Below, piece by piece: positions 30,842 through 33,547 of a stretch of 33,784 nt of DNA. The stretch comes from Synechococcus sp. Tobar12-5m-g (GTDB lineage: Bacteria > Cyanobacteriota > Cyanobacteriia > PCC-6307 > Cyanobiaceae), in assembly GCF_024345415.1 (NCBI RefSeq), contig NZ_JAGQBB010000025.1, positions 1 to 33,784 on the forward strand, read 5' to 3'. The notes below the pieces were generated by a model, which was not told where the DNA came from, did no database searches, and worked only from the letters and a program-made list of their open reading frames with translations. The position numbers were made by a program, and so were the translations under genes. How positions within the stretch are numbered: position 1 is the stretch's first letter; every line of letters begins with the position of its first letter.

Positions 30842-31216
30842 TCATTCTTCGTCGCCCTCGTCGCTGCCGACGGGCACCAGGCGAATCTGCTTGCGGCCGA
30901 GCTTCAGCTCAAACTCATCACCGGGCTTGAGATCGAGCAGCCCGGTGTAGGCCTTGCCCACCAGCAGGTTGCCGTTGCCCTGAACCGTGGCGATGTAGCT
31001 GAGCTTGCGGCCGGCTTTGGTTCCCATGCCGTTGCCACTTCCGTTGCCGAGGCTGACGCCTTTGGCCTCGAGCAGCGCCTCATAAAAGGCGGTGAAATTG
31101 AGCCGCTCGCTTCCATCCTTCTTGGTGCTCAGGTAGCCGCAGCTGCGCACCAGATCAGATTTGGAGGCATCGCCGAGCTCCTTGACTTTGGTCAGCAGGT
31201 CGGATCCAGTCAGCAT
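30842..31216 (-). CDS. cyanobacterial AbrB-type transcriptional regulator (cyAbrB)
   Basis: This 124-residue DNA-binding protein is of the cyAbrB family, found throughout cyanobacteria. Members influence carbon/nitrogen balance, hydrogenase and toxin genes. The N-terminal conserved part is MLTGSDLLTKVKELGDASKSDLVRSCGYLSTKKDG, ERLNFTAFYEALLEAKG follows, and the C-terminal AbrB fold contains KLSYIATVQGNGNLLVGKAYTGLL and KPGDEFELKLGRKQIRLVPVG. In this subfamily the DNA-binding AbrB domain is C-terminal. The start is taken as ATG 31216; ATG 31246 is in frame and has purines upstream, so an N-terminal extension of ten residues is possible. It lies 85-116 bases after the racemase gene on the same strand. 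Confidence 0.93.
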   Translation of the reverse strand: MLTGSDLLTKVKELGDASKSDLVRSCGYLSTKKDGSERLNFTAFYEALLEAKGVSLGNGSGNGMGTKAGRKLSYIATVQGNGNLLVGKAYTGLLDLKPGDEFELKLGRKQIRLVPVGSDEGDEE

Positions 31217-31301
31217 GATGGTGGGATGGGATAACTGATTCAACATAGCAATCCACGGGAGCCTTTTCAATGGCCCGTGCCGTGTTTGTCAGCCGTTGTT
31301 G

Positions 31302-32432
31302 TCACAAGTCCGCCAAACTGACCCGATCCGAATCCTGCCGAACCATCCGTCGGGAGATGAACGGGGAGGTCATCGCCCTGAGCAGGGCCCCGTAACTCAG
31401 CTGAAACGACAATTCCGTGCCGACGGGAACGGCGATGGTGCCGGTATCGAGGACCAGATGATCACTGCTGGCGCCAAGAAGCTCCATGCCGGCGGGGGGT
31501 GTCAGGCCGCTTGGATCCACATCCTGAACGCCAAGGGCGAGCAGCACGCGCCAGCGATCGCCACAGTCCCTCTCTGCCCCAGCCCCCGGCAGGTTGGCTT
31601 GGAGCGGGCGGGCTTGAGCCAGACCGAAGGCCGTCTGCCGTTGTTCTCCCCGGGGCAGGCTTGGCTTGCGATTCGATTCGATCACTTCGGCGATCAGGGT
31701 GAACGCGTTGGTGCACAGGCCCGCAATCGGCTGGCGCTGCAGCGGTTCCCGGCCTAGCAGGATCGATTCACCCAGGCGAAGATTGTTGATCCGACCCACC
31801 ACCCCTCCGGCCAGCAGCCAGGGCAGGTTGGCGGAGTTTCCTCCCGAAACCTGCTCGAGCGCGATGCCGAACCGGCTCTCCAGGGAGATGGCCAGATCCG
31901 AGAGTTCGGCCATCGATCCATCGGTTGGAACCACCCCGTTCTGGCAGCCCAGATTCGTGCCAATTCCGATCAGTTTCAGGCCGGGCAGCAGCAACACATG
32001 CTGAGCAACCCCTTCGAGCTGTTGCGGCAGGATTCCCTCGCGCCGATCACCGAGTTCCACCATCAGCACCACGCCATGGCGGCGTCCACGGGCCATGGCG
32101 GCGGCGGATAGATGATCCATCACCTCCCGTTCGGTGTTGAGGCTGACATCGGCGACGGCGACCACCCGGGCCACCTGGCTCAACATGGGCGAGCGGATCA
32201 GGGTGATCGGCAGGTTCACCCCGGCTTGCCGCAGCGATTCGATCGTTTCGATGCGCGGCTCGCCGATCCCGGCGATACCCGCCTCCGTGAGGATGGCGAC
32301 AATCGGCGGTGAGCCGAGGGTGGCCTTGGTCACCGCCGTGACGCTGATTCCCTGGCTGCTCAGACGATTCACCAATTGCCGGGCGTTGTGCTGAATCCGA
32401 TCGAGCCGAATCTCCAGCCGCGGGGCCGTCAA
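31302..32432 (-). CDS. PLP-dependent racemase, alanine/ornithine racemase (Orr-like) family
   Basis: This 376-residue fold-type III PLP enzyme has the pyridoxal lysine at about residue 36 (VTAVTKATLG). The N-terminal TIM barrel shows MVELGDRREGILPQQL, GIGTNLGCQNG, EQVSGGNSANLPWL and RLGESILLG. The C-terminal MELLGASSDHLVLDTG and FQLSYGALLRAMTSPFISR match ornithine racemase-type proteins rather than classical Alr, which carries a catalytic Tyr domain. The substrate is unproven. The start is TTG 32432, which shares TTGA with the stop of the upstream DUF1611 gene, so the two are translationally coupled and probably act together. Confidence 0.85.
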   Translation of the reverse strand: MTAPRLEIRLDRIQHNARQLVNRLSSQGISVTAVTKATLGSPPIVAILTEAGIAGIGEPRIETIESLRQAGVNLPITLIRSPMLSQVARVVAVADVSLNTEREVMDHLSAAAMARGRRHGVVLMVELGDRREGILPQQLEGVAQHVLLLPGLKLIGIGTNLGCQNGVVPTDGSMAELSDLAISLESRFGIALEQVSGGNSANLPWLLAGGVVGRINNLRLGESILLGREPLQRQPIAGLCTNAFTLIAEVIESNRKPSLPRGEQRQTAFGLAQARPLQANLPGAGAERDCGDRWRVLLALGVQDVDPSGLTPPAGMELLGASSDHLVLDTGTIAVPVGTELSFQLSYGALLRAMTSPFISRRMVRQDSDRVSLADL

Positions 32433-33547
32433 GGGGTGAGGGCAACCGGCTCACGGACCAGTTCAGGGAAGGCCCGCAGCACCATCTCCACCAGGCGTTC
32501 CGGCGAACGGGTCAGGGCATCGGTGGCGGGGATGGCCAGTTCCACCTCGTAGAGGGCAATCGCCGCCGTGACCTGCCCATCGTCCATGCCTTCGTGGTTG
32601 ATGCACAGACCGATGACCTTTGTGTTCGAGAACGTTTCAATCAAGGCGATTTCGCTGGCGGGCGAGGGCATCGGCAGGGCGGGGAAGTCGCTGAGCCGCT
32701 TCCGCATCGGGGCGTGCTGCAGCACGACGGCCTGGGGTTGGCTGCCCCGCAGGATGTAGGCCGAGCTGAGATAGGCGGGATGGCTGAGGGCGCCCTGCCC
32801 CTCGATCACGATCACCTCGGGCTGGCCATCCGCATGGGCCCCCAGCACGGCGGCCTCCACCTCGCCGGAGCAGAACTGGCAGGGGATGGCATCAAGGGCG
32901 ATGCCGTGGCGGGCCCCCTGGATCAGGCCGGTCTGCCCGGTGCCCACCATGACCGCCCGGATGCCCCGCGCCCTGAGGGCACGGGTGAGGATCAGGGCGG
33001 TGGTGCGTTTGCCGATGGCGCCATCGGTGCCCAGCACCGCGATCCGCCGGCCCGGCAGCGCCGCGACCGCTCCGGTGAACATGTGGAGGTCTTTCTTGGC
33101 AGGGGGGCGGCGCACATCGACGATCGAAACGCTGCGGGCAGCGGCGGCGGCCACGAAGGCGGGGTCGTCGTTGAGAAACTCATGCAGCCCATTGATCAGA
33201 TGCAGGCCGGCACCGAGTGCCGCAAGCATCACGCCGCGCTCCACGGGGGTGAGCATGCCGCTGGCCGGGGCGACGCCGAAGATGAACACATCGGGCCGCT
33301 CGGGGGCCATCGCCAGGGCTTCGCCCAGATCGGCCACCACCGGGATCCCGTTGGCGATCCCGTCGAGGACGGCGCCAGCGTCCTGGCCGGCGGCCTGGCT
33401 GTCGATCACCGAGAGGATGCGGTATCGCTCCGAATGGCGCACCAGCCCATTGGCGGTTTTGCCATCGAGGCGGCCGAAATTCCCTTCGCAATACACAGTG
33501 GCCGTCGGGGACGGAGGCAGGCCGAGGGCATGCAACGATGAAGACAT
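32429..33547 (-). CDS. DUF1611 family P-loop protein (DgcN-like)
   Basis: This 372-residue protein belongs to the DUF1611 family. It has an N-terminal Rossmann-like domain (about 15-150) and a P-loop NTPase-like C-terminal domain with GTDGAIGKRTTA (from 173), reminiscent of the GTDxxxGKT loop of dethiobiotin synthetase-type enzymes. GTGQTGLIQGARHGIALDAI and EVIVIEGQGALSHPAY follow. One branch, DgcN, has been described as an N-acyltransferase in D-glutamate catabolism; whether that applies here is unknown. The start is ATG 33547; upstream frame to 33634 has no support. It precedes the racemase gene with TTGA overlap. Confidence 0.86.
   Translation of the reverse strand: MSSSLHALGLPPSPTATVYCEGNFGRLDGKTANGLVRHSERYRILSVIDSQAAGQDAGAVLDGIANGIPVVADLGEALAMAPERPDVFIFGVAPASGMLTPVERGVMLAALGAGLHLINGLHEFLNDDPAFVAAAAARSVSIVDVRRPPAKKDLHMFTGAVAALPGRRIAVLGTDGAIGKRTTALILTRALRARGIRAVMVGTGQTGLIQGARHGIALDAIPCQFCSGEVEAAVLGAHADGQPEVIVIEGQGALSHPAYLSSAYILRGSQPQAVVLQHAPMRKRLSDFPALPMPSPASEIALIETFSNTKVIGLCINHEGMDDGQVTAAIALYEVELAIPATDALTRSPERLVEMVLRAFPELVREPVALTP

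Follow-up and report, generated by a model that had tools for sequence, protein, structure and literature searches.

A widespread, tightly coupled pair of DUF1611 and Orr-like racemase genes in Synechococcus and other bacteria

The window analysed here is one whole contig of 33784 bases (NZ_JAGQBB010000025.1) of Synechococcus sp. Tobar12-5m-g, whose assembly comprises 2.95 Mb in 47 contigs. It carries a gene for a DUF1611 protein, followed directly by a gene for an Orr-like racemase, a pyridoxal phosphate (PLP) enzyme of fold-type III. The pair is real, widespread and tightly coupled. It is best described as a DgcN-DgcA-like system with an exchanged racemase, with a function that is in part predicted. 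With a probability of about one in two, the two enzymes form a dedicated module that would act on a free amino acid, probably a basic one: Orr would equilibrate its enantiomers and DUF1611 would acylate or otherwise modify one of them.

Both genes lie on the reverse strand. The DUF1611 gene occupies 32429..33547 (372 residues; ATG at 33547, stop codon ending at 32429) and the racemase gene 31302..32432 (376 residues; TTG at 32432, stop codon ending at 31302). The stop of the first and the start of the second share the four nucleotides (nt) TTGA at 32429..32432, read as TCAA on the forward strand. The TTG start is supported because the overlaps of relatives (ATGA, GTGA, TTGA) fall at the same place. 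A preliminary description of this DNA had given the span of the two genes and this overlap, and both are confirmed by direct reading of the sequence; its family assignments, and its statement that the partner is a fold-type III PLP racemase and not an enolase-type one, are borne out as well. The DUF1611 protein has an N-terminal, Rossmann-like domain (PF17396, 84.5 bits; cut-off 22.6) and a C-terminal P-loop domain (PF07755, 214.7 bits; cut-off 25), and the Orr-like protein matches PF01168 with 86.5 bits (cut-off 24.1). The earlier statement that these two are the sole genes of their transcript ahead of cyAbrB is not confirmed, as the contig ends only 237 nt upstream of the DUF1611 gene.

The adjacency of DUF1611 and PLP racemase genes across genomes, proposed earlier as a check, was surveyed by scanning GTDB contigs with seven cyanobacterial DUF1611s of type O, the Orr-paired clade. 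The best 80 of 550 confirmed loci (cited below as L with a number) were taken as relatives, and together with the window and six other cyanobacteria they form a set of 87. Orr lies directly downstream of DUF1611 in 78 of the 80 relatives (77 by phmmer; in L135 the contig ends inside Orr), and the 71 DUF1611 proteins aligned are 61-75% identical to that of the window. In the two exceptions, L122 and L172, tblastn finds no Orr in the locus. A 4-nt NTGA overlap is found in 70 of the 87 loci (ATGA 37, GTGA 18, TTGA 15); the remaining 17 comprise 14 with other spacings and three without a countable Orr. Two of the 14, L151 and L168, also show ATGA, their Orr being cut by the contig end. According to the record titles, the relatives belong to about a dozen phyla, including Cyanobacteria, Actinomycetota/Acidimicrobiia, Alpha-, Gamma- and Deltaproteobacteria, Planctomycetota and Verrucomicrobiota, with further titles naming Pontiellaceae, Lentisphaeria, Gemmatimonadota, Krumholzibacteriota, Acidobacteriota, Nitrospinota, Nitrospirota and Omnitrophota. 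Metagenome-assembled genomes make up most of the relatives, and at least one title is doubtful, as the "Bifidobacterium breve" locus L123 groups with cyanobacteria in the gene tree. The intact pair with its 4-nt overlap also occurs on five plasmids, of Phaeobacter, Vibrio europaeus, Aliiroseovarius, Ruegeria and V. parahaemolyticus. The DUF1611 and Orr trees mirror each other with a correlation of 0.91 over 62 loci, a value partly raised by shared host descent; the best of 1000 permutations reaches 0.36, and the correlation is 0.90 when the divergent cyanobacteria are left out. With the neighbour kept in 78 of 80 relatives, the pairing is far beyond chance, and the conserved neighbourhood on which the earlier idea depended is present.

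Whole genomes were sampled in four phyla, each draw including its centre genome by construction. In Cyanobacteria, a strong Orr (>290 bits, the next best match having 54) is found in 7 of 244 genomes and has DUF1611 directly upstream in all seven. In Pseudomonadota, 7 of 229 genomes have a strong Orr (at least 249 bits); five of these adjoin DUF1611, and a search of the other two genomes finds no DUF1611. Orr is common without DUF1611 in Actinomycetota, where the genomes with both full-length genes (4 of 198) have them adjacent. Full-length DUF1611 and full-length Orr are thus paired wherever they occur together in these three samples (7/7, 5/5 and 4/4). Ten of 288 genomes of Verrucomicrobiota have a strong Orr (>340 bits): in four it follows DUF1611, in five it is fused to an arginase, and in one it is single. 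No DUF1611 was found in the six genomes with a fused or single Orr, the other 278 not having been searched for it. Around the unlinked Orr loci, none of the 13 stretches fetched contains a DUF1611. Of the genomes examined, only that of L172 has the two genes in separate places, and its Orr resembles the unpaired kind. No sampled genome in the four phyla has an Orr above the curated cut-off of the Orr model NF040742 (480 bits). Bacillota and Thermotogota, which are also known to have Orr, lie outside the sample; T. maritima gives a signal in the search controls.

In five loci of Verrucomicrobiota (L125, L128, L134, L170, L268) the Orr frame is intact and no ATG, GTG or TTG stands near its start. 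At the overlap the codon reads TTA, CTA or ATA, and all five have an in-frame ATC a few codons upstream, after a G-rich stretch, which suggests an AUC start. In L170 the nearest standard start lies 313 nt upstream, within DUF1611.

The AlphaFold2 model of the DUF1611 protein has a mean confidence score (pLDDT) of 93.7. The solved structures that fit it best, over nearly its full length, are 2OBN (Z 42.0), 2G0T (Z 38.6) and the DgcN structure 7XRJ (Z 32.5; root-mean-square deviation, rmsd, 4.4 over 325 residues). P-loop synthetases and ATPases match at about residues 154-368 only. A P-loop like that of dethiobiotin synthetase, as described previously, is indeed present: the Walker A motif GTDGAIGKRT forms residues 173-182 (33002..33031, reverse strand), and the dethiobiotin synthetase (BioD) 3OF5 superimposes with Z 14.4 and an rmsd of 3.3 over 180 residues, a likeness that, as for other fold relatives at Z of about 14, is confined to the P-loop domain and carries no claim of BioD membership. 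The link to the DgcN branch, also made earlier, holds at the level of fold given the match to 7XRJ. Identity with DgcN is rejected, however, since the protein scores 169.8 bits against the DgcN model NF041892, whose curated cut-off is 480.

Comparison of 77 type-O with 54 other DUF1611 sequences separates common from class-specific residues. The P-loop (with G173, D175, G179 and K180 conserved to at least 90% in both partner classes), TGQ, D219, EGQG, H256, N317 and D343 are common to both. Class residues, given as type O/other, are Q224/D, E229/A, H318/T, R181/M and Q210/I. The acidic residues E229, D287, E299 and E319 are present in type O and mostly absent from other DUF1611s, and a basic substrate would suit them.

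The model of the racemase (mean pLDDT 93.5) matches alanine racemases (Z up to 29.6), D-threonine aldolase (Z 28.7) and YhfX (Z 27.3). The rmsd is 2.6 for D-threonine aldolase against 3.0-4.1 for the alanine racemases, with sequence identities of 15-21%; phmmer finds nothing among PDB sequences at 1e-3, although the fold search finds matches. A plain alanine racemase is rejected (TIGR00492, 28.7 bits against a cut-off of 168). The protein resembles the Orr model NF040742, which NCBI classes as "exception", along its full length (model 2-350 of 351, protein 4-362), with 296.8 bits. The paired Orr and the five arginase fusions compared share K36, R131, C163, R219, E252, K256, D304, D324 and H325. 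By alanine-racemase numbering we take K36, R131 and R219 to be the PLP lysine, the carboxylate-binding arginine and the arginine at the pyridine nitrogen; the racemase also retains a set of residues specific to Orr. K36 (32325..32327, reverse strand), the presumed Schiff-base lysine, is present in 61 of 61 Orr-paired, five of five arginase-fused and five of five other Orr sequences. The SSDH motif of the C-terminal domain (residues 322-325; 31458..31469, reverse strand) is kept in paired, unpaired and arginase-fused Orr.

The fused arginase (PF00491) follows Orr in the five Verrucomicrobiota proteins with 84-204 bits (L259, L260, L261, L263, L264), and one Pseudomonadota fusion, L186, scores 57 bits. 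In these proteins Orr forms the N-terminal part of about 370 residues. The product of arginase is ornithine, and the fusions suggest a direct route from arginine to D-ornithine; on the strength of these fusions, ornithine is the best guess for the substrate of the family. An arginine deiminase gene stands directly upstream of the Orr-less type-O DUF1611 of L172, 32 nt before the longest possible frame, a single case that fits this guess.

Outside the Orr-paired type O, 73 DUF1611 loci were inspected: 34 cyanobacterial ones (with the seven of type O, 41 of the 79 matches of at least 178 bits), 22 of 37 from Pseudomonadota, 13 of 28 from Actinomycetota (matches of at least 190 bits), and L219-L222. 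An enolase-superfamily gene, recognised mostly with a query or profile derived from the neighbouring gene itself, is adjacent in 63 and within 2 kb in four more (L070, L084, L090, L096), that is, in 67 of 73. Pfam or NCBIfam confirms the label in all nine tested (L002 of the own genome, L083, L101, L102, L197, L204, L213, L220 and L221), and L221 passes both curated cut-offs (DgcN 544.5 bits against 480, DgcA 495.7 against 400). In L224 the enolase-superfamily gene is 3.4 kb away, and in L219 a MurL-like/creatininase protein takes its place. None was found at L087, L089, L226 and L228; the DUF1611 gene of L226 adjoins one for a GltS glutamate symporter. Two haloarchaeal plasmids carry DUF1611 beside an annotated dipeptide epimerase. 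The Synechococcus genome itself has both kinds of pair, as a second DUF1611 gene (G000:C12:55499-56101) lies directly downstream of an enolase-superfamily epimerase gene whose product has MR_MLE Pfam domains. Labrenzia sp. OB1 (L159) has an Orr pair besides a true dgcN-dgcA and a further enolase-type pair, so that the Orr pair is not simply the dgcN of that genome.

In a midpoint-rooted tree that includes 41 of the 77 type-O sequences, type O is monophyletic (support 0.991) and has as its sister a clade from Acidobacteriota (0.933; 0.972 for the two combined), which still pairs with enolase-type genes (L220, L241) or with the MurL-like protein. As the Orr-paired DUF1611s form one clade, the simplest history suggested by the tree is a single exchange of an enolase-type partner for Orr. 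DUF1611 seems to be a companion of racemases, with the fold of the partner following the DUF1611 clade.

The MurL-like partner, seen beside type-O-like DUF1611 in L219 and L239-L242 of Acidobacteriota, has about 800 residues, with an N-terminal half weakly similar to MurL and a creatininase C-terminus. It accompanies DUF1611 in all four Acidobacteriota genomes with a full-length or nearly full-length copy (199 searched), and in L241 an enolase-type gene comes after it. The case for MurL is weak for the 795-residue partner, which scores 25.6-26.5 bits where the cut-off is 700 and has no good sequence match in the PDB.

We infer the substrate, the donor and the direction of the proposed module as follows. 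The Orr-like PLP enzyme, judged by its fold and conserved residues, would first convert a free amino acid, likeliest ornithine or another basic one, between its L and D forms. DUF1611, with its P-loop and an activated donor, would then modify the amine of one enantiomer, as DgcN and the fold indicate; the donor may be acetyl-CoA, as for DgcN, or ATP. The likeliest modification would be N-acylation of the D form, which would draw the equilibrium towards a single product. The Dgc pathway begins with the acetylation of D-glutamate by DgcN, and its enolase-type racemase, DgcA, then racemises the acetylated compound. N-acylated compounds are the substrates of enolase-type racemases like DgcA, whereas for a PLP racemase the alpha-amine has to be free. 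Because of this need, racemisation would precede modification if the alpha-amine is the site, reversing the Dgc order. The earlier view that the chemistry probably differs from the Dgc route gains indirect support from this textbook property of PLP racemases and from the split of DUF1611 residues by partner type.

Several observations weigh against this proposal. The window proteins miss the curated cut-offs of both DgcN and Orr, so that neither activity can be read from the family, and the literature searched gives no measured reaction for any type-O DUF1611 or paired Orr. As modelled, the DUF1611 fold is that of ATP-dependent synthetases and ATPases, which does not point to acetyl-CoA. The argument for ornithine draws on a different branch of Orr, and W205 and N202, which differ between the paired and most other Orr, could change the specificity. 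The unpaired Orr of L262 has the paired-type residues in a genome without DUF1611, so that these residues are no proof of coupling. On a plasmid of Vibrio nigripulchritudo (L256), the stretch read shows no racemase within about 7 kb of a type-O-like DUF1611 that scores 325 bits against the type-O profile and shares 37% identity with the protein of the window, and the genome of L122 contains no Orr match at all. The wider neighbourhood offers no steady cue to the substrate.

The Walker A motif is conserved, and the fold relatives at Z of about 14 include CTP synthetase, cobyrinic acid a,c-diamide synthase and dethiobiotin synthetase, while Foldseek lists cyclic 2,3-diphosphoglycerate synthetase and MurD with low TM-scores. 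DUF1611 might accordingly be read as an ATP-dependent synthetase of the dethiobiotin-synthetase, CTP-synthase or cobyrinate-synthase kind, which carboxylates, phosphorylates or ligates an amine or carboxylate, and not as an acyltransferase, the racemase supplying a D-amino acid. A common fold proves no function, however, and the sole named activity in the family, according to NCBIfam and PDB titles, is that of the N-acetyltransferase DgcN, which has the same P-loop. We regard such a synthetase as rather unlikely.

It is also unlikely that the pair serves a D-to-L salvage, in which Orr would racemise environmental D-amino acids and the L form would then be N-acylated into metabolism. By clustering, 7 of 80 loci (L114, L124, L142, L148, L165, L168, L181) share a related gene close to the pair; its L114 member is an M81/MlrC-type metallopeptidase by Pfam, and the same family occurs in five of the 86 neighbours scanned. 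Oligopeptide-binding proteins follow the pair in L125 and L128, and upstream in L172 lies an ATP-binding cassette transporter, of polar-amino-acid type by eye, with its ATPase confirmed by Pfam. These would suit salvage, but no transporter or peptidase is conserved (Pfam on 86 of the 201 listed neighbours gives 91 families, the commonest in five), and the cassette spreads as two genes.

A Dgc-like order could be reconciled with PLP chemistry if DUF1611 acted first, on an amine of the side chain such as N5 of ornithine, and Orr then racemised the product, whose alpha-amine would still be free; DUF1611 also precedes Orr in the type-O loci that have both. Gene order, however, need not mirror reaction order, and paired Orr keeps the residues of arginase-fused and other Orr, which presumably act on the free diamino acid, making this order very improbable. 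Chance or housekeeping neighbours without joint function are refuted by the survey (78 of 80 relatives, the kept overlap, the mirrored trees and the plasmid copies) and have a negligible probability.

A broader proposal can be put forward only tentatively. DUF1611 may be a general companion of amino-acid racemases whose folds are not related to one another: those of enolase type, those of PLP fold-type III, and perhaps also an ATP-dependent, MurL-like epimerase that carries a fused creatininase. Its Orr branch would reverse the order of DgcN-DgcA, first racemising a free amino acid and then trapping one of the enantiomers, so that many bacterial phyla would make an N-modified D-amino acid not yet described, such as N-acyl-D-ornithine.

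Downstream of the pair in the window, at a distance of about 30-85 nt depending on the start chosen, lies cyAbrB (30842-31270; PF14250), with a weak promoter-like match at 31270-31242 (one found against 0.5 expected). A fixed link to cyAbrB is rejected, since none of the 86 other type-O loci, some of them on short contigs, was found to have this gene nearby. No conserved larger operon emerges: neighbour clustering of 80 loci yields, beyond the pair, only groups of 4-7 loci. A secreted-looking protein with Cys-rich repeats (L251:6959-7798), whose sole Pfam match, EGF-like, is marginal (28.1 bits; cut-off 27), has homologues in L121, L131, L135, L144, L147, L164, L177 and L179; its gene lies upstream of DUF1611 on the same strand in 7 of 80 loci, on the opposite strand in L177, and also occurs on three Roseobacter-group plasmids. 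On the plasmids L251, L252, L254 and L255 the pair stands among varying sets of stress genes (GroEL/GroES, Hsp20, HflK/HflC, NhaA, Crp/Fnr), surroundings that resemble a mobile stress-tolerance island.

For a domain of unknown function these results supply a testable rule, namely that DUF1611 usually has an amino-acid racemase next door, whose fold tracks the clade. They also predict an ordered two-step pathway and a new metabolite in picocyanobacteria, Acidimicrobiia, Planctomycetota, Woeseiaceae and others, partly plasmid-borne. Environmental counts of dgcN may include Orr-paired DUF1611 genes, for example in Woeseiaceae: the Orr-paired protein of L147 scores 162.5 bits against the DgcN cut-off of 480, and the same genome has an enolase-type pair (L223). 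Woeseiaceae are named as dgcN carriers in a survey (PMC12363236). No paper joining DUF1611 and a racemase was found in a search without preprints and with few subscription papers, and absence from print is not established; the papers naming DUF1611 (PMC6695200, PMC6143709) concern other matters.

Among known systems, alanine racemase and the D-threonine aldolase/D-serine dehydratase folds have fold-type III in common with the window racemase, at a large distance in sequence. Orr (NF040742) is closer, with K36, R131, R219, E252, K256, D304 and SSDH conserved, but the window racemase is paired with DUF1611, whereas the unlinked Orr loci examined lack it. The pair of DUF1611 and a dipeptide-epimerase-like protein, presumably also that of Anabaena 2OBN, has the same DUF1611 family and the same close linkage; it differs in its enolase-superfamily partner and separate DUF1611 clade. 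In the Dgc route, according to PMC11747546, D-glutamate is N-acetylated and then racemised. DgcN-DgcA and the present pair both encode a DUF1611 enzyme beside an amino-acid racemase, with the same two-domain fold and the same P-loop, TGQ and EGQG. The downstream neighbour here is not of the DgcA type: it is the Orr-like PLP enzyme of fold-type III in place of their enolase-type racemase, and the DUF1611 class residues differ with it.

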